A DNA stretch of 13,019 bases from Candidatus Thorarchaeota archaeon (GTDB lineage Archaea; Asgardarchaeota; Thorarchaeia; Thorarchaeales; Thorarchaeaceae). The position numbers and the translations under genes are program-made. The notes under the pieces are model-generated. The model saw only the letters and a list, made by a program, of their open reading frames with translations, had not been told where the DNA came from and made no database searches. Location: the NCBI GenBank assembly GCA_016840245.1, contig JAEOST010000338.1, positions 1 through 13,019 on the forward strand. The letters are read 5' to 3'. Positions 1,675 to 12,882 of this stretch are shown here, one piece after another (the first letter of the stretch is position 1; each line of letters starts with the position of its first letter).

Positions 1675-2997
1675 TTGAAACCTGAAGTGATACATGTGAG
1701 TAAGAAACGGCAACATCCAGAGTTCCTACGACTAATCTTTGCAGATGTGTTAGGTAGGACGAGAAGTCTTGAGATGGGATTTGATAGACTTAGTGAGGTT
1801 GTCAATGAGGGAGTCTATATTGATGGATCCTCAGTACCTGGATATGCAGCAGTGAATTCCAGTGATCTTCTACTTAGCCCTATCTCCTCAATGCCGTTAG
1901 TTCTTCCATGGGACCCTGAAGCTGGCGTGCTACTATGTAGTTTGTACGAGGTATCAGGTGTTCCACACCCAAGTGATACACGACATATCTTACGTAGAGT
2001 TGTGGAACGTGTGTATGAAGTAGATATGATGCTTCAAGTAGGAAGTGAGTTGGAGTTCTTTTTGGTTGCGGATACAAAAGACAAGCATCCTACACCAGGA
2101 GATTTTGGCGGGTATATGTCAGGTCCCCCCGACGATGCGGGGCGTGCATTCAGAAGATCAGCAATCCGAGCATTAAATCAGATTGGGATAAGTACTACTA
2201 CTCATCACCATGAAGTTGCTGATGGACAACATGAAATAGGAATCAATCACGGTCCTGTGTCTGAGATAGCTGATGCCGTAATGTTGGCTAAACTTGCTAT
2301 ATCAGAGATTGCACACACAAGAGGTATGTTTGCTACATTCATGGCAAAACCATTTGCGAGGATAAATGGAAGTGGGATGCATATGCATCAAAGTCTATGG
2401 ACTATAGATGAGAGAACCAACCTCTTTGCTAGTGATGGACCTGGAGAAATATCACAACTAGCAAAACACTATACTGCCGGTATTCTTGAACACGCACCAG
2501 CATTATCAGCAATAGTTGCTCCAACAGTCAACTCATTCAAACGATTGGTTCCAGGATATGAAGCACCTACCCGAATAGCGTGGGGTCCAAGAAACAGAAC
2601 AACCATGGTACGTATCCCACATTTCAACGGCTCTTCGGATAGTGCTAGGATAGAAATTAGATGCCCTGATCCTCTCTGTAGTCCACACCTAGCAATGGCT
2701 GCAACATTGGCAGCTGGGATGGATGGTGTTGAGAAACATCTGGAACCCACTGATCCTACAACACATGACTTGTATGAGGAAGAACATGACATACCATCGC
2801 TTCCTGAAAGTCTTATTGAGGCAATTAAGGAATTGGCAAAAGACACAGTTCTTCGAGATGCTCTTGGAAAGAAGATTGTTGAGTCTATCATTGAACTGAG
2901 AACATCAGAATGGGAAGCCTATCTGAAATCCGCAGGAGAACATGATGAGAATAAAATTACTAGCTGGGAAAGACAACGATACATGTTAGCCAACTGA
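1675..2997 (+). CDS. glnA: Glutamine synthetase family protein (GSI-type)
   Basis: Expected reaction: ATP-dependent ligation of ammonia to glutamate in the cytoplasm, as a dodecamer. Family motifs appear in order (numbered from TTG 1675): YIDGSSVPGY (49-57), with the aspartate D50 used for ammonium binding in bacterial enzymes; GSELEFF (123-129), metal ligands E125 and E127; HHEVADGQHEIG (178-189), E180 and E187; NGSGMHMHQS (231-240); KRLVPGYEAP (289-298), whose E297 matches the catalytic flap glutamate; RNRTTMVRIP (306-315); RIEIRCPDP (325-333). No adenylylation tyrosine motif of the beta class is evident. The protein is slightly short (at most 440 residues): an in-frame TAA at 1672-1674 blocks extension, so the usual N-terminal helix is trimmed. 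Coordinates give the longest frame; the TATA position makes GTG 1687 or 1696 the likelier true start. The N-terminal half is more divergent than the C-terminal half, so a gamma-glutamyl ligase acting on another amine is possible. The SCP2-like gene follows 64 bases downstream. Confidence 0.88.
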   Translation: MKPEVIHVSKKRQHPEFLRLIFADVLGRTRSLEMGFDRLSEVVNEGVYIDGSSVPGYAAVNSSDLLLSPISSMPLVLPWDPEAGVLLCSLYEVSGVPHPSDTRHILRRVVERVYEVDMMLQVGSELEFFLVADTKDKHPTPGDFGGYMSGPPDDAGRAFRRSAIRALNQIGISTTTHHHEVADGQHEIGINHGPVSEIADAVMLAKLAISEIAHTRGMFATFMAKPFARINGSGMHMHQSLWTIDERTNLFASDGPGEISQLAKHYTAGILEHAPALSAIVAPTVNSFKRLVPGYEAPTRIAWGPRNRTTMVRIPHFNGSSDSARIEIRCPDPLCSPHLAMAATLAAGMDGVEKHLEPTDPTTHDLYEEEHDIPSLPESLIEAIKELAKDTVLRDALGKKIVESIIELRTSEWEAYLKSAGEHDENKITSWERQRYMLAN

Positions 2998-3045
2998 TTC
3001 GTGATTCCAAAACACCCATATCTACCAAAGTATACTCCAACCTTT

Positions 3046-3053
3046 AGAAGGTG
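3046..3053 (+). promoter_or_regulatory. Shine-Dalgarno site of SCP2-like gene
   Basis: AGAAGGTG lies 8 bases before the ATG at 3062. It complements the CACCU part of the archaeal 16S rRNA 3' end and supports that start. A TATA-like TATACT lies just upstream at 3031-3036, but it is so close that a transcript from it would be almost leaderless, so read-through from the glutamine synthetase gene is equally plausible. Confidence 0.5.
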
Positions 3054-3061
3054 CACAAAAA

Positions 3062-3484
3062 ATGCCATTCTTTGAAAGTGCTGAACAGATGCAAGATGTG
3101 TTTGAGGAATTCTGGAAAAGAGCAACACAACAAACCGAGGTCATGGAGAAACTGGCTAAATCGAAGGTAGTAGTCAGGTTCGACATTGAACAACCTGAGT
3201 TGCATATCACAATCAACTTTCGAGACCCTGACTCTGAAGGTAACTATGGAACTCTATCCTTTGATATGGATACTGACCCAGAGATATCCGTGTGGAGTAC
3301 ATCAGAAACCACCAACAAGTTTTGGGCAGGTAAGTTGAAGACAACAGTGGCTATGGCTCGAGGTCAAGTCAAACTGCAAGGATCAGTAGCAAAGGCTCTT
3401 GGACTATTATCCAAGATCAAACCCCTTTACGATATTTGGCCAGAGGTTTTGAAAGATAAAGGTCTAGACCATATGCTTGTATGA
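3062..3484 (+). CDS. SCP2 sterol-binding-domain-like protein
   Basis: This is a 140-residue soluble protein without signal peptide or membrane segment. Residues about 34-120 fit the SCP2 alpha/beta fold: alternating strands (VVVRFDIEQPELHITINF, 36-53), an amphipathic NKFWAGKLKTTVAMARGQ (85-102), then VKLQGSVAKALGLLSKI (103-119). The run 'x-W-x-G-K-L-...-A-M-x-x-G-x-V-K-x-x-G' is the characteristic SCP2 core, where lipids or acyl-CoA bind in a hydrophobic tunnel. In archaea and bacteria such stand-alone domains are presumed lipid or acyl carriers, but substrates are rarely known. It lies 64 bases after glutamine synthetase and 19 bases before the metallohydrolase, so cotranscription with the latter is likely. 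Family assignment is from motif recall and fairly secure; biological role is open. Confidence 0.7.
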   Translation: MPFFESAEQMQDVFEEFWKRATQQTEVMEKLAKSKVVVRFDIEQPELHITINFRDPDSEGNYGTLSFDMDTDPEISVWSTSETTNKFWAGKLKTTVAMARGQVKLQGSVAKALGLLSKIKPLYDIWPEVLKDKGLDHMLV

Positions 3485-3503
3485 ATAGAGGATTGCAATC
3501 TAG

Positions 3504-4478
3504 ATGAACAGACTAAAAGAGATTGACAGGCTAGAAGTCACTATAATCATGGATAATGTGATTGACTTCTCATCAGCAGTAGATAGATCTAATGTACTCA
3601 ATCCTACTCAATGGGTTATTCCTAGACACCCCGATTTAAACAAGCTAGCAGCAAATCATGGATTCTCAGTATTAGTGAAGACTGAATCAGATGACGAAAC
3701 ACATTGCATCCTGTATGATGTTGGATCATCGGGAAGCTCCTTGACTTACAATCTAAATATTCTAGGAATCGACACTACAGAAATAGAAGCAATTGTAATA
3801 TCTCATGGGCATTGGGACCACTTTGGGGGACTTCTCTCAATATTGCGACTGATGAACAAAGACACTCCGATATATCTGCATCCTGAAATGTTCTCAAAGA
3901 GGGGATTTGCGTATACAGAAAACGACCAAGAAAAGATACGGGAGATGGAACAACTCCCAGGTGTTGATCGCATCAGAGAACATGGTGGTTCGCCTGTTAT
4001 TGTCACAGGTCCTACATTGATTGCCAATAACCACCTAATGCTTAGTGGAGAAGTTCCACGACAGACCGACTACGAAAAGGGACTCAGAGGACATCGGGCG
4101 TTAGTCAATGGAGAATGGGTTGATGATGAAACGGTCAAGGATGACAGATCACTTATCGCGAATGTTAGAGATCTGGGACTTGTAGTCATGAGTGGTTGTA
4201 GTCATGCCGGAATTGTGAACATAGTTGAAGATGCTAAAAGATTAGCAAGCGAAGACCAAATCCACGCAATTATCGGAGGTTTGCATCTAATAGGCAAAGA
4301 CGGTCCAACACGAACAGCATCAACAATCGCAGATATAAAGAGAATAAATCCAGCGCTCATCGTCCCATGCCACTGCACAGGCTGGAAGGCTCAACATGCA
4401 TTTGGAAGAGAGCTACCAGAGGCCTATGCGTGTAGTAGTGTAGGAAATAGGTTCGTATTCACAAGTGGTCCGACCTAA
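3504..4478 (+). CDS. Metallo-beta-lactamase fold hydrolase (COG1237-like)
   Basis: A 324-residue cytoplasmic MBL-fold protein. It opens with the strand VTIIMDNVID (12-21), which argues for the ATG at 3504 rather than the internal ATG at residue 16. Metal-site motifs are all visible: YDVGSSG (71-77), SHGHWDH (100-106; H101, H103, D105, H106), SGCSHAG (230-236; H234), GGLHL (258-262; H261) and VPCHCTG (287-293; H290). The SGCSHAG...GGLHL pattern marks the group that databases often label '7,8-dihydropterin-6-yl-methyl-4-(beta-D-ribofuranosyl)aminobenzene 5'-phosphate synthase'. That name implies tetrahydromethanopterin synthesis, but the biochemical basis is thin and I would not assume it. It begins 19 bases after the SCP2-like gene; GAGG at about 3488-3491 is a weak and distant ribosome site. 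Fold and metal site are secure, substrate unknown. Confidence 0.82.
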   Translation: MNRLKEIDRLEVTIIMDNVIDFSSAVDRSNVLNPTQWVIPRHPDLNKLAANHGFSVLVKTESDDETHCILYDVGSSGSSLTYNLNILGIDTTEIEAIVISHGHWDHFGGLLSILRLMNKDTPIYLHPEMFSKRGFAYTENDQEKIREMEQLPGVDRIREHGGSPVIVTGPTLIANNHLMLSGEVPRQTDYEKGLRGHRALVNGEWVDDETVKDDRSLIANVRDLGLVVMSGCSHAGIVNIVEDAKRLASEDQIHAIIGGLHLIGKDGPTRTASTIADIKRINPALIVPCHCTGWKAQHAFGRELPEAYACSSVGNRFVFTSGPT

Positions 4479-4480
4479 AA

Positions 4481-4489
4481 TATTAAATA
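4481..4489 (+). promoter_or_regulatory. TATA box ahead of the DUF1858 gene
   Basis: TATTAAATA sits right after the metallohydrolase stop codon in an A/T-rich 58-base gap. Usual spacing predicts a start near 4511, leaving a leader of about 25 bases that contains the ribosome site GGTGA (4526-4530), 6 bases before the ATG at 4537. This suggests the small gene can be transcribed on its own. Confidence 0.5.
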
Positions 4490-4536
4490 TGAAAATATCA
4501 AAATCGTTAACAATCGTGAACAATTGGTGATTCGCA

Positions 4537-4746
4537 ATGAGTGAAGCAATTACGAAAGAAATGACAATTTTAGAAGTTGTAACAAAGTTTCCAGAGACCA
4601 GAGACACATTCATGGAATGGGGTCTACACTGTTTTGGGTGTGCAGTAGCTCGATTCGAGAACATAGAGCAGGGTGCAACCGCTCATGGTATTCCTGTCGA
4701 AAAATTAGTCGAAGCACTCAATGAATCAGTAGACAAGAAGGAGTAA
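4537..4746 (+). CDS. Small DUF1858 / hybrid-cluster-associated CxxC protein
   Basis: A 69-residue protein that is essentially one DUF1858 domain. Features seen: a helix with ILEVVTKFPETRDTFMEWGL (11-30), then HCFGC (31-35) with the redox CxxC pair C32/C35, then ENIEQGATAHGIP (41-53). This pattern matches the short family found beside hybrid-cluster (prismane) proteins and the N-terminal ScdA-type domain, thought to take part in redox or iron-sulfur repair chemistry under nitrosative or oxidative stress. No hybrid-cluster gene lies in the window, so the partner is elsewhere or different. The start is fixed by GGTGA 6 bases upstream. The gene ends 11 bases before the convergent panB stop. Family call is confident; function is inferred. 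Confidence 0.82.
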   Translation: MSEAITKEMTILEVVTKFPETRDTFMEWGLHCFGCAVARFENIEQGATAHGIPVEKLVEALNESVDKKE

Positions 4747-4774
4747 AAGGTCCTCTATCACGAGGTGCCTTTTT
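4745..4774. terminator. Bidirectional hairpin between convergent genes
   Basis: The left arm AAAAGG-T-CCTC (4745-4755) pairs with the right arm GAGG-TG-CCTTTT (4762-4773) around a 6-base loop, with one small internal mismatch. A run of T follows on the plus strand (4770-4774) and TTTTA on the minus strand. It overlaps the last codons of panB and directly follows the DUF1858 stop, the right place to end both transcripts. In archaea the T-runs may matter more than the stem. Confidence 0.45.
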
Positions 4775-5609
4775 CTCGGCCATATAATCTACCAGCTTCT
4801 TCTTCATCCATCTCAAAGCTATGTTCGTCTGTGGGAAATTGACCTTGACGAACATCATCACTATATTCAGACACAGCTGCCTTGATGACCGCCCTGACGT
4901 TAGCATACTTTTTCAGGAATTTTGGATTGAAATTATCAAAGAGTCCTAACATATCCCACAATACAAGGACTTGTCCATCGCAATGTTGACCAGCCCCTAT
5001 TCCGATTGTTGGGATATCGATAGACTCGGTAATCATCTTTGCAGTTTCAGTCGGTACAAGCTCAATGACTAAAGAAAATGCACCAGCCTCTTCCAAAGCC
5101 TTTGCCTGATCAACTAGTTCCTCAGCAGTACTATTTGTACGTCCTTGGACACGATATCCTCCAAGCTCATAGATCGATTGAGGTGTGAGTCCTATATGTC
5201 CCATTACTGGAATCCCTGTATCTACAACAGCATTCACGATATCCACTGTTCTACCAGCACCTTCGAGTTTTACGGCTTCAGCTCCACCCTCCTGTAACAT
5301 GCGGCCACAATTCTTGAGAGCTTGTTCAATGCTCACTTTGTAAGACATGAATGGCATATCACCTACAATGAGACTCTTGGGTTTTGCACGAGAAACTGCT
5401 GCACAATGGTGGATGATATCATCTAGTGTCACTGGTACTGTACTCTCATATCCAAGGAGGGAGTTTCCCACAGAATCGCCAACAAGAATCATGTCGACTC
5501 CACATTCACTGAGAATGCCAGCAGTAGGTGTGTCATAGGCAGTCAGCATTACAATACGCTTGCCCTTCTTCTTCATTTGCCGGATGCGATAGGTAGTCTT
5601 CCTTGCCAA
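4758..5609 (-). CDS. panB: 3-methyl-2-oxobutanoate hydroxymethyltransferase (PanB)
   Basis: Transfers a hydroxymethyl group from 5,10-methylene-tetrahydropterin to 2-oxoisovalerate, giving ketopantoate, the first committed step to pantothenate and coenzyme A. The 283 residues match the family's usual length and form a TIM barrel. Key elements: LTAYDTPTA (22-30), GDS (44-46; metal ligand D45), GDMPFMSY (83-90; D84), KLEG (114-117; E116), GHIGLTPQS (137-145), GGYRVQGR (150-157), the probable catalytic E183 in VIELVP, and GIGAG (203-207). The start is a TTG at 5609, chosen because GGAG (5618-5621) lies 8 bases before it and the extra 11 residues fit the first helix; the internal ATG at residue 12 has no such site. 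The acidic tail (about 261-271) is variable in the family. No other pantothenate gene is in the window. Confidence 0.96.
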   Translation of the reverse strand: MARKTTYRIRQMKKKGKRIVMLTAYDTPTAGILSECGVDMILVGDSVGNSLLGYESTVPVTLDDIIHHCAAVSRAKPKSLIVGDMPFMSYKVSIEQALKNCGRMLQEGGAEAVKLEGAGRTVDIVNAVVDTGIPVMGHIGLTPQSIYELGGYRVQGRTNSTAEELVDQAKALEEAGAFSLVIELVPTETAKMITESIDIPTIGIGAGQHCDGQVLVLWDMLGLFDNFNPKFLKKYANVRAVIKAAVSEYSDDVRQGQFPTDEHSFEMDEEEAGRLYGREKGTS

Positions 5610-5617
5610 GTGGATAT

Positions 5618-5653
5618 CTCCTGACTCTCTTTGATTAAATACTATATATATAG
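5618..5653 (-). promoter_or_regulatory. panB promoter and ribosome site
   Basis: On the minus strand a strong TATATATATA box (about 5644-5653) lies about 35 bases before the TTG start, and GGAG (5618-5621) serves as ribosome site. Predicted transcription start near 5622 would leave a leader of only about a dozen bases. Further upstream is a 10-base perfect palindrome TGTATATACA (5676-5685) that could be an operator, though such palindromes occur by chance in A/T-rich DNA. Confidence 0.5.
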
Positions 5654-5697
5654 AGTTTCATGGTTGATTATGTATTGTATATACATATTGAAGGAAA

Positions 5698-7656
5698 TCA
5701 CGTTTTTGTCTGGACAATATAACTGTCAGAACGTGGAATGTACGCACCCTTGAGAAATCGTCGGAAGAGGGTCATTACAGCACTTCTTCGCAGACCACGC
5801 TCACGTGCAAATGAAGTCACTCGGATATAGCCCTGAGTAGATGCAAGCTTTCTCAGTTCTTTAACCCATTCAGCACTTACAACCATCCCTGCACTTCCAA
5901 CTAACACTTCTGTGTCTAATAATTCGTGTTCAAGTATTTCTACTAAGTCATCCATATTCAAGTGCAGATTCTTTGCGGTCCTCTGTAAATCATAAATGCC
6001 ATCATTTTGTAATCGCCATCTGAGGGGTTTGATTACAGATTGCTTCTCGATGTACTTTTCATCTGAAGTTCTTACACCATCGAGCTTGATTTCTTCCACT
6101 ACACTCTCCAAATCAGTGAGGTCTAATCCCATCTCAGTAGCTATCTCTTGGAGATCAACTAGACCCTCGTCCTTGAATTTGGTCTTGATAGAATCTCTGA
6201 GTGCAGATGCTGGAACTAACGAACCAGTCTTGGTCAGAAGTGCATCGGTTTCGATCTGAGCTAAGATGGCCTCAGCCTCACCATGCCGAATGTCCATTCT
6301 CTTAGCCAACACATCAGGTTGTACTGGTCGTCCTTTCTTCAAGTTGGCTTGAATCCATCGTCGAGTCCAACTCAATGACAGGAAATCACCATTCTGCGTG
6401 ATAAGTACACGAATACCAAAACGCTTGATGAGAGCAGCTGTTTCATAACTTGTCAGACCCCAGAGAGTCTCGCATTTGCTGACCTCAATGATTCCACCAT
6501 CACGGATCTCATCAAGCAGCCAGAGTCTGTATTTCCAAATCGAAACAAATCGCCCATCCTTGGTCTGCCTGATTCCTGAGATGCCTCGTAGAATTCCTTC
6601 AATCACTTTCACATCTATACCATATGACTTGGCTTCTTCTCGAGGTGTAACTACTCCAGTCAGTTCCAAATCTTCATTGAGTCGCTCACGAAGATAATCA
6701 AGAAGAATGAGTGAGTCGTCCTTTGAACTCACAAAACTGAGCCCCAGACCTTTCAGGACACGTTCAATATCAGTTGACCTGACGAGTAATCGTTGTTGCT
6801 CATCACTGAGATCGAGGATTCCCTCTGACTCAATACGTTCCCTGAGATAGCGTTGCAGCAGATGTGCTGGAATCAAGCGACCATCTGTTGTACTCACCAT
6901 TTTCCATTTTAGAAGTTTGATTGCTCGAAGAATGTCAGATTCTGATAACATGAATCGTTCAGCCACTTCTTTCTGGCTTAGAAATCCATTGCGCTCGACT
7001 ATACGTTCTAGAGTACGCTCCAACCAATCAATGGAGAGAAGAGGTCCTTCTGAAGAACTGAAGAGTTTCCAGTTCCATGTTTCAATCAGACGTACAAGTT
7101 CTTCACGTGGAACACTCATCCTCTGTGCTTCTGAGTGAATCTCAATTCGTCCATGAAGATCAAGGGCATCCTTCATTCGACCCTTCAAATCTGGCACTAA
7201 CAGATAGTCACCATCTTTCGTCAGGACAACATCAAGACCCTCCTTAGAGGAGAGTTCGTCCACAATCTCACCAATAACACTCTCAGAGATGTCCCATCTT
7301 GAGGAAATTCTCTGAACGTGAAGAATTGCCTCCTCAGTCAACATCTCGCGAACTCGTAGATACATCAACGGATAAGAGAGAACACGCGTCCCTCCGAAGC
7401 TAAGAACTCCATTCTCAGACCTCTTGATCAAACCACGTATGGTTGATCTGTCAAGTTGTCTTTTGTCAAGAGTCTCAGCAATCTCCGCTACTGACAATGA
7501 GAAACTTGAATGTAGCATTGAATCAAGCATGCTAACCTGTCTCTCTCGGACTCGCACAGCCCAGCTATAGATACCCGCAACTATAGCAGCGCATAGTAGT
7601 ATCGCCACTATGAGCACAACAAGTGGGTCTTCTAGTAGAGTGAACTGCAGGAGCAT
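5698..7656 (-). CDS. Membrane-anchored tandem winged-helix repeat protein, UFL1/UFBP1-like
   Basis: A 652-residue protein. One hydrophobic helix (about 11-32) is followed by R35, R37, R39, so by the positive-inside rule the rest is cytoplasmic. From about 42 to 648 I count about eleven repeats of 53-57 residues, each a helix-turn-helix then a two-stranded wing ending in a motif like KDGDYLLVPD (147-156), TTDGRLIPA (256-264), TKDGRFVSI (365-373) or KTGSLVPA (476-483), which runs into the first helix of the next unit. This head-to-tail packing of winged helices closely resembles eukaryotic UFL1, the UFM1 ligase scaffold; the anchor recalls its partner UFBP1/DDRGK1, a single membrane helix plus winged helix. 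There is no catalytic motif, as in UFL1. Alternatives: an ESCRT-II-like or membrane-tethered DNA-binding scaffold. It starts 30 bases after the P-type ATPase with no clear promoter or ribosome site between, so cotranscription is likely. The repeat architecture is seen; the UFL1 link is inference from remembered sequence. Confidence 0.6.
   Translation of the reverse strand: MLLQFTLLEDPLVVLIVAILLCAAIVAGIYSWAVRVRERQVSMLDSMLHSSFSLSVAEIAETLDKRQLDRSTIRGLIKRSENGVLSFGGTRVLSYPLMYLRVREMLTEEAILHVQRISSRWDISESVIGEIVDELSSKEGLDVVLTKDGDYLLVPDLKGRMKDALDLHGRIEIHSEAQRMSVPREELVRLIETWNWKLFSSSEGPLLSIDWLERTLERIVERNGFLSQKEVAERFMLSESDILRAIKLLKWKMVSTTDGRLIPAHLLQRYLRERIESEGILDLSDEQQRLLVRSTDIERVLKGLGLSFVSSKDDSLILLDYLRERLNEDLELTGVVTPREEAKSYGIDVKVIEGILRGISGIRQTKDGRFVSIWKYRLWLLDEIRDGGIIEVSKCETLWGLTSYETAALIKRFGIRVLITQNGDFLSLSWTRRWIQANLKKGRPVQPDVLAKRMDIRHGEAEAILAQIETDALLTKTGSLVPASALRDSIKTKFKDEGLVDLQEIATEMGLDLTDLESVVEEIKLDGVRTSDEKYIEKQSVIKPLRWRLQNDGIYDLQRTAKNLHLNMDDLVEILEHELLDTEVLVGSAGMVVSAEWVKELRKLASTQGYIRVTSFARERGLRRSAVMTLFRRFLKGAYIPRSDSYIVQTKT
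5713..7533 (-). repeat. About eleven tandem winged-helix protein repeats
   Basis: Repeat boundaries in residues of the encoded protein are roughly 42-97, 98-155, 156-209, 210-263, 264-320, 321-374, 375-430, 431-483, 484-539, 540-594 and 595-648. Each unit reads as basic/hydrophobic helix, short turn with a small residue, recognition-like helix ending in hydrophobic-x-x-hydrophobic, then a wing containing D-G or T-G. The DNA of the units is not obviously repetitive, so the duplications are old. Confidence 0.6.
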
Positions 7657-7686
7657 GATTAGGTTCTCGATTCTTATTTGTTACTT

Positions 7687-10617
7687 CTAAAGTGTCATAC
7701 TGTTTTCTCTTAAGCTCCTCTTGTATATCTCAACTCCAAGTATGGCAGGTAGTGCACATAATATGCATATCAACCAGTCAAATGCAGTCAATGGCATAAA
7801 GAAGAAGTCCAATCCATATGAAGACAATATCTCCTGAACCATTGGAACGTACATGAGTAATAGATGTGCCAGGTAAATCAGACCAAGGAATATCACAAAA
7901 CGCTCAATTCCAGGCTCTCTGATGGACTTAGAGAGAGGCATGTTAATTCGTCGGATAAGAAGAACCATTATGCTCTCAACAAGAAGAATCACCGTCAACA
8001 TCATGATGGTGGCTTTCGCAAAAGCTTGTTCCTGATAGGAGAAACCGAAGTCGCCGTAGAAGCCCTGCAGATTCTCAGGGGTTACATAGATGACACCGTT
8101 TCCAGGTATAATAGTTAGAGCGTAGATAACCACAGCTCCAATAACCATTAGGATGACATTGATAGCCATGAACTTACCCAGAGGTCGAGTAATGATCTCC
8201 TCACTATCCCTAGGCTTCTCTTCCATCGCGCGAGGTGATATTTTGTCGAAGATTAGAGCTAATCCAGGGAATGTGTGTGTTGTTACAACCAAGTACGGGC
8301 TTTGCCAAGTAGATAGGATGTTGATAGTAGGTAAGATGAATAGGGCGCCGAAGAAGATTATACTCTCGAACAGATTTATTGCCACATAGAAGTAGATCAT
8401 CATTCTGATCTTTGTAAAGAGACCTCGACCCTGATGAACACCAGTAACTATTGATGCAAAGCTGTCATCAGTAATGACTAGATCCGCAGCCTCTTTCGCA
8501 ACATCAGTTCCAGTGATGCCCATAGCAATTCCTGCATCACTCATAGCAAGAGCCAGAGCGTCGTTTACACCATCCCCAGTCATTGCTACTACTTTACCCT
8601 GCTCTTGAAATCGCTCTACGATTACCTGCTTATGAGCAGGATTGACACGAGCGTATACACTGACTTTATCGAACTCATGAGTGGTCAATGATTCAATCTG
8701 ACCACCCTCGACTGCAAGAGAGCCTGGTTTGTATATATTCAGTTCCTCAGCAATAGTCTGAGCTGTTGCCGCAGAGTCACCTGTAATCATGACGACATCA
8801 ATTCCTGCACTATGACAGTCATTGACAGCTTCTTTCACACCCTCTCTAGGTGGATCAACAAGTACTGCAAAACCAAGGTAGACTAAGTCGTTCTCAGCTA
8901 TATCACGAGCCGTGGGGCCTGTAGGAGCTTTGTCTAATTCACGATAGGCTAACGATATGACTCTGTATCCCCTCTTAGCAAACCCACTTGACATCTCTTT
9001 AATTTCTGATAGGTCCTTTTCTGTCATAGGACCTGGTTTTCCAGGCTCATTCTGCATAGTGCAACGTGGTAGTAGTACTTCAGTTGCTCCTTTAACAAAC
9101 GAGATGAACTTTTTCCCATCTTCACAAATCTTGGACATTCGTTTTAGTTCCGACTCAAATGGGAACTCTTCAATTATCTTGTAACGCTTTTTCAACTCAA
9201 CCTCATCGAGACCACTCTTCCTGAAGAGAGATAGAAGTGCAGCATCAGTTGGATCGCCTAGTGGAACCCACTCTTTGCAACCGTCTAAACCTTCTCGGAG
9301 CTCAAGCTCAGAATCATTATCAATACCTCCACAAACAATCAATCTGTAGAGGCCTTTCCAACCCTCAATATCACTCACAAGTACTTGGTCGGATGCGTTA
9401 ATGTTATCCATTGCAGATTGCTCTTTCATACGGAAGACTTGACCAGTGGGCTCATATCCTGCACCCGTGATGCTGTAGAGGTTCTCAGTGTCCCAGCAGA
9501 ACTTTACCGTCATTTGATTCCTAGTCATGGTGCCGGTCTTGTCAGAGCAAATCACACTGACTCGTCCTAGGCTCTCGACAGCGGATAAATCGCGAATAAT
9601 CACACCTAGTTTAGCCATAGCTAAAACGCCAGTTAGAAGAACAATTGTTGTCAGTAGTGGAATGTTGATTGGCATTATTGTCATTGCCCGGGTAATACCC
9701 TCAGTCAATTGAGAAGCAATATTGACGGGAGTCAAATCCCACGGTGTCGCACTCAAGAGTGGGTAGAGGAAAACCTGCCAGAGAAATGAGATTACCATTA
9801 GGGCGATTGCAGCAATTCCCAAGTATTTTGCTAAGAGGTTGACTTTCTTACGAAGGGGTATATCCCCAGTGTTCAATGACTCTAATTCACCCTGAATCTT
9901 ACCAATTTCAGTTGAACCACCAGTAGTTGTAGTAATCACCTTCGCTGTACCTGTAGTAACATAGGTTCCAAAATAGACCATATTTGCTCGATCGGATAGA
10001 GCTGAATCATGAATCACATTTGCTTTGTGATCCTTGGTAGAAGGTACGCTCTCTCCAGTAAGTGAGGCCTCATTTGTCGCAAGATTTGAGCTAGTAATTA
10101 GACGTGCATCCACAGGAATCTTGTCACCCTGTTCTAGTTTGATGATATCACCAGGGACCACATCAAATGGGGTGATTAGTATCTCAGAGCCGCCACGAAT
10201 GACTCGTACATCCCCAGCAGACAGCTTTTCAAGTGCTTCTAGTTTCTTCTGTGCCCTGAATTGCTGAAAGATTGCCACAAGTGCATTAACTGCAACTATT
10301 CCAAGCCAGACTGTCGCTTGACCAATCTCATTATCAGTGTCAGGGAAGAGAAGTGCTAGAATGAGTAAAGCAAAGGAGCTTAGCAGATAGATAGTGATGA
10401 GCCAATTGAGTATGGGAGCAAAATACACCTTCCAGATAGATCCCTTGATTTTTGCAATCTTATTCTCACCATATCGTTCAAGACGCTCACGAGCTTCTTG
10501 AACTGAGAGACCCTGATCTGGATCAACAGAGAGAGATGATAGTACTTCATCAAGTGGCATAGAATGATACGGAGCTGGTTCATGCTCTGTGGCTTGAGTG
10601 GCGACGCTCTCTGTCAT
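7687..10617 (-). CDS. P-type cation-transporting ATPase, P2-like with atypical ion site
   Basis: ATP-driven ion pump of the inner membrane, 976 residues, ten predicted helices. Domain order: N-terminal cation-ATPase domain (17-60), M1-M2 (66-118), actuator with TGES (187-190), M3-M4 (263-335), phosphorylation loop CSDKTGT with D359, nucleotide domain with KGAT (509-512), DPPR (588-591), TGD (612-614), hinge TGDGVND (680-686), M5-M10 (738-965). Overall it follows the SERCA/PMR1 plan, but the M4 ion motif PEGLP is replaced by PINIP (316-320), and M6 has H781 where SERCA has Asp800 and V778 where it has Asn796. M5 keeps N748 and E751 (SERCA N768, E771). The transported ion is therefore uncertain. 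The start is supported by GAGGT (10624-10628), 6 bases before the ATG at 10617. The winged-helix gene follows after 30 bases, so the two may be one operon. P-type assignment is certain; specificity is not. Confidence 0.93.
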   Translation of the reverse strand: MTESVATQATEHEPAPYHSMPLDEVLSSLSVDPDQGLSVQEARERLERYGENKIAKIKGSIWKVYFAPILNWLITIYLLSSFALLILALLFPDTDNEIGQATVWLGIVAVNALVAIFQQFRAQKKLEALEKLSAGDVRVIRGGSEILITPFDVVPGDIIKLEQGDKIPVDARLITSSNLATNEASLTGESVPSTKDHKANVIHDSALSDRANMVYFGTYVTTGTAKVITTTTGGSTEIGKIQGELESLNTGDIPLRKKVNLLAKYLGIAAIALMVISFLWQVFLYPLLSATPWDLTPVNIASQLTEGITRAMTIMPINIPLLTTIVLLTGVLAMAKLGVIIRDLSAVESLGRVSVICSDKTGTMTRNQMTVKFCWDTENLYSITGAGYEPTGQVFRMKEQSAMDNINASDQVLVSDIEGWKGLYRLIVCGGIDNDSELELREGLDGCKEWVPLGDPTDAALLSLFRKSGLDEVELKKRYKIIEEFPFESELKRMSKICEDGKKFISFVKGATEVLLPRCTMQNEPGKPGPMTEKDLSEIKEMSSGFAKRGYRVISLAYRELDKAPTGPTARDIAENDLVYLGFAVLVDPPREGVKEAVNDCHSAGIDVVMITGDSAATAQTIAEELNIYKPGSLAVEGGQIESLTTHEFDKVSVYARVNPAHKQVIVERFQEQGKVVAMTGDGVNDALALAMSDAGIAMGITGTDVAKEAADLVITDDSFASIVTGVHQGRGLFTKIRMMIYFYVAINLFESIIFFGALFILPTINILSTWQSPYLVVTTHTFPGLALIFDKISPRAMEEKPRDSEEIITRPLGKFMAINVILMVIGAVVIYALTIIPGNGVIYVTPENLQGFYGDFGFSYQEQAFAKATIMMLTVILLVESIMVLLIRRINMPLSKSIREPGIERFVIFLGLIYLAHLLLMYVPMVQEILSSYGLDFFFMPLTAFDWLICILCALPAILGVEIYKRSLRENSMTL

Positions 10618-10623
10618 CTGTCT

Positions 10624-10668
10624 ACCTCTTATGTTCCCGGTTCAATTGGAAATGTAACAGATAAATGA
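10624..10668 (-). promoter_or_regulatory. P-type ATPase promoter region and ribosome site
   Basis: On the minus strand ATTTAT (about 10661-10666) is a modest TATA candidate, predicting a start near 10638, and AAGAGGTAG (10622-10630) is a clear ribosome site before the ATG at 10617. This 168-base spacer (10618-10785) also serves the divergent protease. It contains a 7-base inverted repeat TTCCCGG (10634-10640) / CCGGGAA (10692-10698) that could be a regulator site. Confidence 0.4.
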
Positions 10669-10767
10669 ACTTGTAATAGACAACTCCATCTCCGGGAAAC
10701 GTATGGTCAGGTAGACATCCAACCTTTAGAATGTTTTCTCCTCCGAAAGAGTTGCTTTTACTCACCA

Positions 10768-10785
10768 TAGTCGATAGGTTCATCT
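10768..10785 (+). repeat. Start-proximal element, copy 1 (upstream of protease)
   Basis: TAGTCGATAGGTTCATCT directly precedes the protease ATG and recurs without a mismatch at 12934-12951, directly before the next gene. It includes AGGT, 6 bases before the ATG, which could act as a short ribosome site. The identity continues into the coding region (46 of 51 bases over 17 codons). Confidence 0.8.
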
Positions 10786-12882
10786 ATGTACAGATGGTTG
10801 AGTTATAGTGGTGAACAGAAACCGATGATGCACGCCGCTGGCTCTAGTTGGAGTTCTGTTGGGTCTGACCAAGGCCCGTCTTCAGGAAACAGAAAGATTG
10901 TAGCAATAACTGTGATTCTAATAATGATCATTGGAGCTTCAAGTGTGATATTGCTTGATCTCACCTCAAATGGTCACACTTCAACTAATACTACTTCGAC
11001 TACTATCACTTCAACTATTCCAACTTCAACTATTCCAACTTCAACTAATCTTACAACTACTGTACCACCGGTAATCGATAATCCGATCAGAGTTGCTGTA
11101 ATTGATTCAGGTATTAATTCTGACTCGACACTGTCTGGAAAGGTAGTTCTTGGGATGAGCTTCGTGCAAACAATTTACGGCTATGATAGTGACGACCTCA
11201 CTGTAACTGATGCGTCGCCAGATGTTGAACATGGGACACTTGTTGCTAAGACGGTTGTCTCACAAAGTCCAAGCGCAGTGATAGTTAATGCGAAAGCAAT
11301 TGACATTGATGGAGTAGCAACCACAGCAGGTTTAATCGCGGCTATAGAATGGGCTGTTGAGGTCAATTGCTCAGTCATAAATCTCAGTCTTGGCTCTGTG
11401 CCATCATTTGGTGATACACTAGAGCAGGTTGTTGAATGGGCCCATTCCAGGGGTGTAGTAGTTGTAGCTGCTGCAGGGAATGATAATGAAGATGGGCTCA
11501 TGGGCAATAGCATCAACTCTCCTAGTGTATTTCCACATGTGATATCAGTCGCAGCATTGACACAAATCAATACCCCTGCAGACTACTCAAGCCGTGGTCC
11601 AACAGTGACAAGGACCATGAAACCGGACATCTCGGCGTTAGGTGTTGTATCAACAGAGTCGGCCACGTACTATGGAACTAGTTTTGCCTCCCCCAGAGTT
11701 GCAGGGATTGCTGCAGAACTCCTTGCATTGTGCCTGACCAATGACTTTGCCTATACTCCAGGTCTCATCAAGACTGCTCTAATGAAGGGAGCAACACCAT
11801 TGGCCTATCCCGAATATGAAGTAGGCGCCGGGATGATTAACCTTCAAGAGTCATGGGATTTGATTTTAACAAATTCTGTGAATGAATCTTTTTGTTCTCT
11901 AACCTATGTACATCCTGGAGAGCTGCCAGTTGATTATGAACGTCTCTTCTGGGGTGATGTCTATGAGTTCAATATCGAAATCATTAATGGATGGGAAACT
12001 GAATATGACATCACAATAGAAAGTGATACTCCCACTATCTTTGACTTACCAAGTCAGGTTATAGTCAATCAGACGGATTATGTTTCTCTGACTCTGCATG
12101 TCCCATTAGTTGGATTGATGAACTATTCTGCACGTATCAACTTCTCCTCAACAGAGCTTGGTTCCCATGTTTTAGAGATTGCATTCTCACCTGCAACTTC
12201 GATAGCCAAGGTAGCAATTGATGTAAGTCATACGACCTGGTCGATTGATAGTACATATGGGCAGTTCAGAGATCTCTATCTCACCTTGGTTGAAAATAAC
12301 ATTTCAGTGACCGAGATCAATGACAGAAACGATATCACCTTGAGTAATCTGATGGCGTATGATGCCGTACTGATACTTGATCCCTGTGTTTGGGATCGTA
12401 ATGAAACCGACCCTCTAAATCCAGAGTTATTCTCCACTCCATTTACAATAGCAGAAGAACAGGCATACCAGGATTATTTCAATGCTGGAGGTGGTATCTT
12501 CGTTGCCGCCCTCTCCAATGACTCCCTTGACATTGGCTCTCTCAATGACTTCCTTAATTGGACCGGGTTCTCATTGGAATTCAACCAGATACCAATCTTT
12601 GGTGACACAGTTGAAATAACTAACATATTCACACATCCAATAACAAACGGAATTGACTCCTTCGATTATTCTGGTGCAGCGATTAATGTACCAGTATCTG
12701 GCGAGATTTTGGCTCAACGTAGTGGGAATTCGGTTCTAGGAGCTCTCGATGGAGTTGGCCGCTTTGTACTCAGTGGAAGTAACTTCCATATTGATAACTG
12801 GGGCATGTCAGGTGAGTACTATTCGGACTATAACGATGAGTTAGCACTTCAGATTGTACTTTGGTTGTGCGGACTGTTGTAG
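10786..12882 (+). CDS. Membrane-anchored subtilisin-like (S8) serine protease with C-terminal GATase-like domain
   Basis: A 698-residue protein: a 37-residue N-terminal tail, one membrane helix (about 38-58), a Thr/Ser-rich linker (60-94), then an S8 peptidase domain (100-360), a beta-sandwich (about 385-468) and a C-terminal alpha/beta domain (about 474-698). The catalytic triad is visible: D107 in VAVIDSGI, H149 in EHGTLVA, S299 in GTSFASP, plus oxyanion N232 in AAAGNDN. The membrane helix with an outside catalytic region predicts a cell-surface protease. The C-terminal domain, with STYGQFRDLYLTLVENNISV (489-508), AGGGIFVAALSND (567-579) and GRFVLSGSNFHID (658-670), resembles the glutamine-amidotransferase-like region that follows the S8 domain in eukaryotic site-1 protease; this link is recalled, not computed. 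There is no obvious propeptide between linker and catalytic domain, so autoprocessing is uncertain. The conserved DNA before ATG 10786, shared with the next gene, supports this start over Met14/Met15. Confidence 0.88.
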   Translation: MYRWLSYSGEQKPMMHAAGSSWSSVGSDQGPSSGNRKIVAITVILIMIIGASSVILLDLTSNGHTSTNTTSTTITSTIPTSTIPTSTNLTTTVPPVIDNPIRVAVIDSGINSDSTLSGKVVLGMSFVQTIYGYDSDDLTVTDASPDVEHGTLVAKTVVSQSPSAVIVNAKAIDIDGVATTAGLIAAIEWAVEVNCSVINLSLGSVPSFGDTLEQVVEWAHSRGVVVVAAAGNDNEDGLMGNSINSPSVFPHVISVAALTQINTPADYSSRGPTVTRTMKPDISALGVVSTESATYYGTSFASPRVAGIAAELLALCLTNDFAYTPGLIKTALMKGATPLAYPEYEVGAGMINLQESWDLILTNSVNESFCSLTYVHPGELPVDYERLFWGDVYEFNIEIINGWETEYDITIESDTPTIFDLPSQVIVNQTDYVSLTLHVPLVGLMNYSARINFSSTELGSHVLEIAFSPATSIAKVAIDVSHTTWSIDSTYGQFRDLYLTLVENNISVTEINDRNDITLSNLMAYDAVLILDPCVWDRNETDPLNPELFSTPFTIAEEQAYQDYFNAGGGIFVAALSNDSLDIGSLNDFLNWTGFSLEFNQIPIFGDTVEITNIFTHPITNGIDSFDYSGAAINVPVSGEILAQRSGNSVLGALDGVGRFVLSGSNFHIDNWGMSGEYYSDYNDELALQIVLWLCGLL
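11008..11047 (+). repeat. 15-base tandem repeat in the Thr-rich linker
   Basis: The unit ACTTCAACTATTCCA occurs twice perfectly (11008-11022, 11023-11037) and a third time for 10 bases (11038-11047), coding TSTIP repeats in the protease linker. Perfect copies imply recent slippage, so linker length may vary between strains. The linker is rich in Thr and would suit O-glycosylation. Confidence 0.85.

Follow-up and report, generated by a model that had tools for sequence, protein, structure and literature searches.

A membrane-anchored chain of eleven winged helices in Thorarchaeota with kinship to the UFL1-UFBP1 scaffold of the UFM1 ligase

The UFM1 ligase (E3) formed by UFL1 and UFBP1 (DDRGK1) is described, in the sections cited of PMC9627666 and PMC10937380, as a PCI-like winged-helix chain in which the first helices make up the backbone, and an Asgard origin of UFL1 and DDRGK1, with a possible role independent of UFM1, has already been published (PMC10183829, section cited). 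A pair of winged helices is found in each of the subunits Vps22, Vps25 and Vps36 of ESCRT-II (endosomal sorting complex required for transport II), and the same source regards as ESCRT-related those Asgard proteins in which helix-turn-helix (HTH)/PCI, adaptin appendage and Vps28-C parts are combined, UFL1 and UFM1 being absent from its main text (PMC10936438, section cited). Here we analysed a 13,019-nucleotide stretch of a Candidatus Thorarchaeota genome (contig JAEOST010000338.1; the window), in which a gene on the minus strand (5698..7656) encodes a 652-amino-acid (aa) membrane-anchored tandem winged-helix protein, read in an earlier note made from the sequence alone as a possible archaeal UFL1/UFBP1-like ligase scaffold. 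The kinship to the UFL1-UFBP1 scaffold was supported by the analysis and the ligase function was not. Computation showed a membrane anchor, eleven units and a kinship that is closest to UFL1/DDRGK1, and detected neither UFM1 nor UFC1 nor an E2 in the genomes that bear the gene. We consider it somewhat better than an even bet that this is a membrane-tethered, cytosol-facing solenoid of eleven winged helices that shares ancestry with the UFL1/UFBP1 scaffold and acts without ubiquitin-like conjugation.

The gene was called from its ATG start, open reading frame (ORF), match to the UFL1 family PF09743 and AlphaFold2 model, and public records that name its product label it hypothetical. The single N-terminal membrane helix of the earlier note was located at residues 12-30 (7567..7623, minus strand, as are all parts of the gene below) by hydropathy, model and charge pattern, with a Kyte-Doolittle value of 3.05 against 1.03 for the best 19-residue stretch past residue 40. 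An N-terminal hydrophobic helix was likewise present in 18/18 full-length proteins (the window protein, 8 database proteins and 9 loci, two being nearly identical), which are 644-678 aa long with pairwise identities of 28-100% (median 36%). The window protein carries no lysine or arginine (K/R) before the anchor and three within the 15 residues that follow, and positive residues were more numerous after than before the anchor in all 18 proteins; given this charge bias, the winged-helix chain should face the cytoplasm. The AlphaFold2 model, built with 13 sequences (mean pLDDT, the predicted local distance difference test, 88.5; predicted template modelling score, pTM, 0.54), has a helix at residues 11-50 followed by eleven winged-helix (WH) units, a count that is our reading of the model's secondary-structure element list and that bears out the about eleven head-to-tail units proposed earlier. 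The units are mutually alignable by sequence, and in the model the last strand of each runs into the first helix of the next. This continuity had been predicted together with aspartate-glycine (D-G) wings, but a literal D-G was found in only 3/11 wings (WH2, WH4 and WH6), with E-G in WH3, N-G in WH7 and other residues in the remaining six.

WH1 (residues 39-94, 7375..7542) is continuous with the membrane helix and is followed by WH2 (95-156, 7189..7374), where the PF09743 match begins. The model then places WH3 at residues 157-208 (7033..7188), WH4 at 209-263 (6868..7032), WH5 at 264-318 (6703..6867), WH6 at 319-372 (6541..6702), WH7 at 373-427 (6376..6540), WH8 at 428-482 (6211..6375), WH9 at 483-537 (6046..6210), WH10 at 538-594 (5875..6045) and WH11 at 595-652 (5701..5874). 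WH2 was acidic in 18/18 proteins (mean net charge -5.5), and WH11 was the sole unit basic in every one of them (mean +6.2, range +3 to +10).

The closest matches in both sequence and fold were UFL1 and a DDRGK1-UFL1 chimera. PF09743 matched the window protein at E 2.8e-13 (50.6 bits against a cut-off of 23.2) and 13/13 family members at E<=0.01; a six-frame search with the same model gave a match in only 3/13 gene-bearing genomes. In Foldseek, ranks 1-5 were UFL1 and the chimera, chains of SelB, RNA polymerase III and ESCRT-II ranking lower (the earlier note had named ESCRT-II and RPC subunits for a profile comparison), with the best UFL1 row leading the first non-UFL1 row by nearly 8 orders of magnitude. 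Despite these ranks the TM-scores were low, the overall curvature being unlike that of the UFL1 and chimera structures. The ESCRT-II fold similarity was weak (best Foldseek value 7.5e-3), with EAP30/Vps36 and Vps25 absent among family matches at E<=1, and a viral fold search returned HTH-like, uncharacterised or unnamed chains. A membrane-bound DNA-binding regulator of tandem HTH units would fit the weak single-unit matches to MarR, HTH_11 and HTH_24 and the basic WH11; it is nevertheless unlikely given the lead of UFL1 in Foldseek, the negative whole-protein net charge of 15/18 full-length proteins, the window protein included, and the recognition helices of the latter, which hold 18 K/R versus 24 D/E (summed by us).

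The register of the chain was examined with nine overlapping three-unit fragments. PF09743 scored best on WH2-WH4 (32 bits, profile positions 11-145), followed by WH1-WH3 (26.2), WH9-WH11 (19.2) and WH8-WH10 (18.4), and was unlisted for the other five. By these scores the anchor and WH1 would correspond in position to UFBP1, and the units from WH2 on to UFL1. The proposed anatomy, a single polypeptide combining a UFBP1-like anchor at its N-terminus with an array like that of UFL1, was upheld. The DDRGK family PF09756 was absent among the 14 families matching the window protein at E<=1, and profile comparison with a 790-aa Asgard family (see below) moves the UFL1/UFBP1 register by one unit relative to that of PF09743.

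The ligase function fared differently when UBA5-, UFC1- and UFM1-like genes were sought. UFM1 gave no match in 227 Asgard genomes with a 75-position model used without a eukaryotic positive control, and one match, below cut-off, in the 14 controls. UFC1-like matches were found in 16/227 Asgard genomes and in 0/13 of those bearing the gene. The general E2 model (UQ_con) was also negative in all 13, which may be incomplete, and positive in 16/16 control genomes, these having been picked for UFC1-like matches, a choice that favours E2-rich genomes. With completeness not stated, absence of an E2 from a single genome means little; across 13/13 it is consistent. ThiF-family E1-like matches exceeded the cut-off in 12/13 gene-bearing genomes (the 13th, G216, having a weak partial match only), and the two such proteins checked, both from G001, were far closer to ThiF/MoeB than to UBA5. 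In the section cited of PMC9192718, true ubiquitin homologues are seemingly missing from Thorarchaeota, and 'Asgard archaeal UFM1' sequences served as outgroup. An active ligase serving some ubiquitin-like modifier that has escaped recognition could draw on the UFL1/UFBP1 kinship and on the ThiF-type proteins, but the contrast in E2 matches between gene-bearing and control genomes, the ThiF/MoeB affinity of the G001 proteins and the seeming lack of true ubiquitin make it very improbable, and a ligase with its own cascade was rejected after the UFM1, UFC1, E1 and E2 family searches. Since neither UFM1 nor UFC1 nor another conjugating enzyme was found, the scaffold probably works without conjugation. 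The earlier note had named two outcomes that together would count against it, and one was seen, in that no UFM1-type modifier or E2 turned up; the best matches were not unrelated DNA-binding arrays.

A separate UFBP1 was sought through DDRGK matches, of which there were 10 in 9/13 gene-bearing genomes, one (G190) over the cut-off. This candidate was rejected among the 8 of 10 matches fetched, as the strongest hydrophobic stretch was in no case N-terminal, although the frame of the L192 match as called opens with a short hydrophobic stretch. Five of the eight are small winged-helix proteins whose hydrophobic segments are C-terminal, two look by eye like eS25-type proteins and one yielded no ORF. 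The small Thorarchaeal proteins (L191:768-1229, L192:905-1441, L194:735-1238, L196:731-1192 and L197:1029-1460) have one winged helix and then the C-terminal hydrophobic segments, the three scanned being DDRGK/PCI-like with all matches under cut-offs; they are possible candidates for membrane-bound winged-helix partners.

PF09743 matched in 95/227 Asgard genomes (90 over cut-off), and in 56 of these 95, by our count, the match lay within an open frame of 770-851 aa. Ten genomes with such a frame belong to the 16 shown to hold E2 enzymes. Examples of this 790-aa type are L006:436-2808 (minus strand) and the relatives P0013-P0132. Hydropathy of the loci L005-L034 revealed no 19-residue stretch above 1.62 in 29/30, the other ending in a masked stretch. 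Families found in these PCI-domain proteins (e.g. P0013) are PF01399, PF09756, PF09743 and in part PF03997, and the three proteins scanned had DDRGK, UFL1 and VPS28 matches after a cysteine-rich start, with VPS28 under the cut-off in one. The family profile is colinear with the DDRGK1-UFL1 chimera (E 1e-11), DDRGK1 by itself matching the first unit and UFL1 the one after it. Its structure model, of moderate quality (pLDDT 73.1, pTM 0.39), aligns with the human DDRGK1-UFL1 chimera 8b9x over 255 columns (TMt 0.70), and another part aligns with adaptin appendage domains. Because of this full-length match to the chimera, an ancestral DDRGK1-UFL1 fusion is more plausibly represented by the soluble 790-aa Asgard protein than by the anchored Thorarchaeal protein, for which the earlier note had suggested that role as one possibility. 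Two of the 120 listed relatives of the 790-aa type (288 found) carry the NCBI label Thorarchaeota, so absence of the type from that lineage is not absolute.

This family also bears on whether the anchored protein could be a membrane adaptor that serves ESCRT in Thorarchaea in the manner of ESCRT-II or of the Vps28-fused 790-aa protein. The Vps28-like end and adaptin-appendage-like part of the 790-aa relatives and the presence of ESCRT-II chains among the Foldseek matches would favour such an adaptor, but the window protein has no Vps28, zinc-finger or appendage match and no ESCRT family was found among the 8 window ORFs scanned, and we regard it as unlikely. Around the 790-aa gene itself, at the one locus read of six fetched (G124), no ESCRT family was detected in 10 of 15 ORFs of >=130 aa scanned within 8-9 kb.

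The gene stands at the same genomic place in 13 genomes, which, with the 18 full-length proteins, shows that the ORF is not due to chance. The relatives bearing an organism name (7/13) are all Candidatus Thorarchaeota, the closest being 98% identical; scans of genome contigs for relatives gave none in the first and two loci in the second, and weak profile matches in G192, G206 and G171 were excluded from the count of 13. The G192 match, L064:7680-9551, encodes a protein of 623 aa whose N-terminus holds hydrophobic segments and whose chain is weakly related (profile E 2e-21); it lies in an unrelated neighbourhood beside another ORF with a hydrophobic start and has no Pfam match at E 0.01.

A P-type cation ATPase (7687..10617, minus strand; family match and locus comparison) lies upstream across a 30 bp gap in the window, and directly upstream on the same strand in 13/13 gene-bearing genomes. 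The best NCBIfam model for the window ATPase was PMR1-type Ca2+ (458 bits, below cut-off), several cation classes were resembled, and no equivalog cut-off was passed among the best 25 of 30 families. Measured from the first start codon per frame, the gap between ATPase and gene is -53 to +19 bp in 12/13 genomes and 170 bp in one, and gaps this short make co-transcription likely. Where the contig left room, a divergent subtilase preceded the ATPase in 10/10 gene-bearing loci and panB followed the gene in 10/10 (976 bp away in L001). The block at 1675-12882 of the window runs through glutamine synthetase, SCP2, metallo-beta-lactamase, panB, the scaffold gene, the P-type ATPase and the divergent subtilase, and is largely syntenic over the Thorarchaeal loci read. 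An accessory or regulatory subunit of the ATPase would be in keeping with the constant neighbour and the short gaps. With the whole block syntenic, however, the linkage carries little weight, and 25 further genomes have the ATPase (64-70% identity) and lack the gene. The downstream side is visible in 24 of these loci (the 25th contig stops inside the ATPase), and panB is kept in 24/24, at <=146 bp in 22 and at 670 and 1149 bp in two. It follows that the pump can do without the scaffold, which is dispensable and no obligate pump subunit. The subunit reading had looked strong at 13/13 loci and was weakened by the 24 informative pump-only loci, and a subunit of any kind seems improbable. The profile search elsewhere in these gene-less genomes found no relative apart from the weak one in G206. 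In two genomes that lack the gene, G215 (L180:4548-5000) and G209 (L181:2209-2838), a different small ORF lies between ATPase and panB.

On an ATPase tree of 46 rows, gene presence needs 6 changes (bootstrap 5-6), of which starred branches force only 2; G182 was dropped for an ATPase piece of <500 aa, and the 'no' label of G193 is unproved as its contig ends inside the ATPase. As the gene occupies the same site in scattered clades, we infer an ancestral Thorarchaeal gene that was lost several times.

For the conjugation-free membrane scaffold that we favour, the chain would be a protein-docking arm, helix 1 of each unit forming the backbone as in UFL1/UFBP1, and this arm would hold a partner at the membrane. 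Less surely, the basic end unit WH11 might bind an acidic or nucleic-acid surface, e.g. of a ribosome or other RNA-protein particle; WH10-WH11 superpose on winged helices of SelB solved with RNA, which makes it possible that the tip touches nucleic acid or a ribosome. What is new here is the membrane-anchored single-chain variant in genomes where no E2 was found; an anchored single-chain form with eleven units was not found in the literature searched, supplements lying outside that search. It provides an archaeal relative of the UFM1 ligase scaffold that is concrete and open to testing, in genomes without a detected conjugating enzyme, and its interest lies in this isolation from the conjugation system, which allows a direct look at the role of the UFL1-UFBP1 scaffold before UFM1 (an issue brought up in the section cited of PMC10183829) and which may explain why UFL1 and DDRGK1 are retained in some eukaryotes after UFM1 loss. 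Because a colinear DDRGK1-UFL1 arrangement is common in Asgards, the two-subunit ligase may be the product of a single chain that was split. More tentatively, and as a possibility to which we give clearly less than even weight, UFL1 and UFBP1 could have begun as one gene for a membrane-tied single-chain scaffold for protein sorting or ribosome/RNA docking without conjugation; eukaryotes would have broken it in two inside one winged helix and recruited UFM1 and UFC1 only afterwards, and Thorarchaea would keep the anchored, conjugation-free form. In Thorarchaea the membrane tie would be the anchor; in other Asgards it would consist of the zinc-finger part and those resembling an adaptin appendage and Vps28.

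Among known systems, SelB is an elongation factor in which four winged helices accompany a GTPase part, and its winged-helix region differs in a Foldseek match nearly eight orders weaker than that of UFL1. ESCRT-II shares tandem winged helices and action at membranes, and differs in having two winged helices per subunit and no known membrane helix. The 790-aa Asgard protein likewise joins, in a single chain, a DDRGK-like unit to the UFL1-like ones behind it (window-family profile match at residues 104-361); it differs in beginning with a cysteine-rich, zinc-finger-like part where the Thorarchaeal protein has its anchor, and in carrying an adaptin-appendage-like part and, at its end, a Vps28-like one. 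The UFL1-UFBP1 complex has UFM1 as its modifier and UFC1 as its E2, whereas the gene-bearing Thorarchaeal genomes gave no match to UFM1, UFC1 or any E2; it consists of two polypeptides with 7 units, one of them a split composite, whereas the Thorarchaeal protein is one polypeptide of 11 units with no such composite in the model. In UFBP1 the anchor is followed by a long helical region with a UFM1-interacting motif, where the Thorarchaeal helix 11-50 goes straight into WH1; UFL1 has a free N-terminal UFC1-binding helix and a C-terminal helical region, where the Thorarchaeal first helix is the membrane helix entering WH1 (an internal equivalent being possible) and the modelled chain stops after WH11. 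With UFBP1 the Thorarchaeal protein shares an N-terminal membrane segment (here residues 12-30) and then a winged helix (here WH1 at 39), and with the UFL1-UFBP1 E3 as a whole it shares, by AlphaFold2 model and Foldseek, a chain of PCI-like winged helices with a helix-1 backbone.
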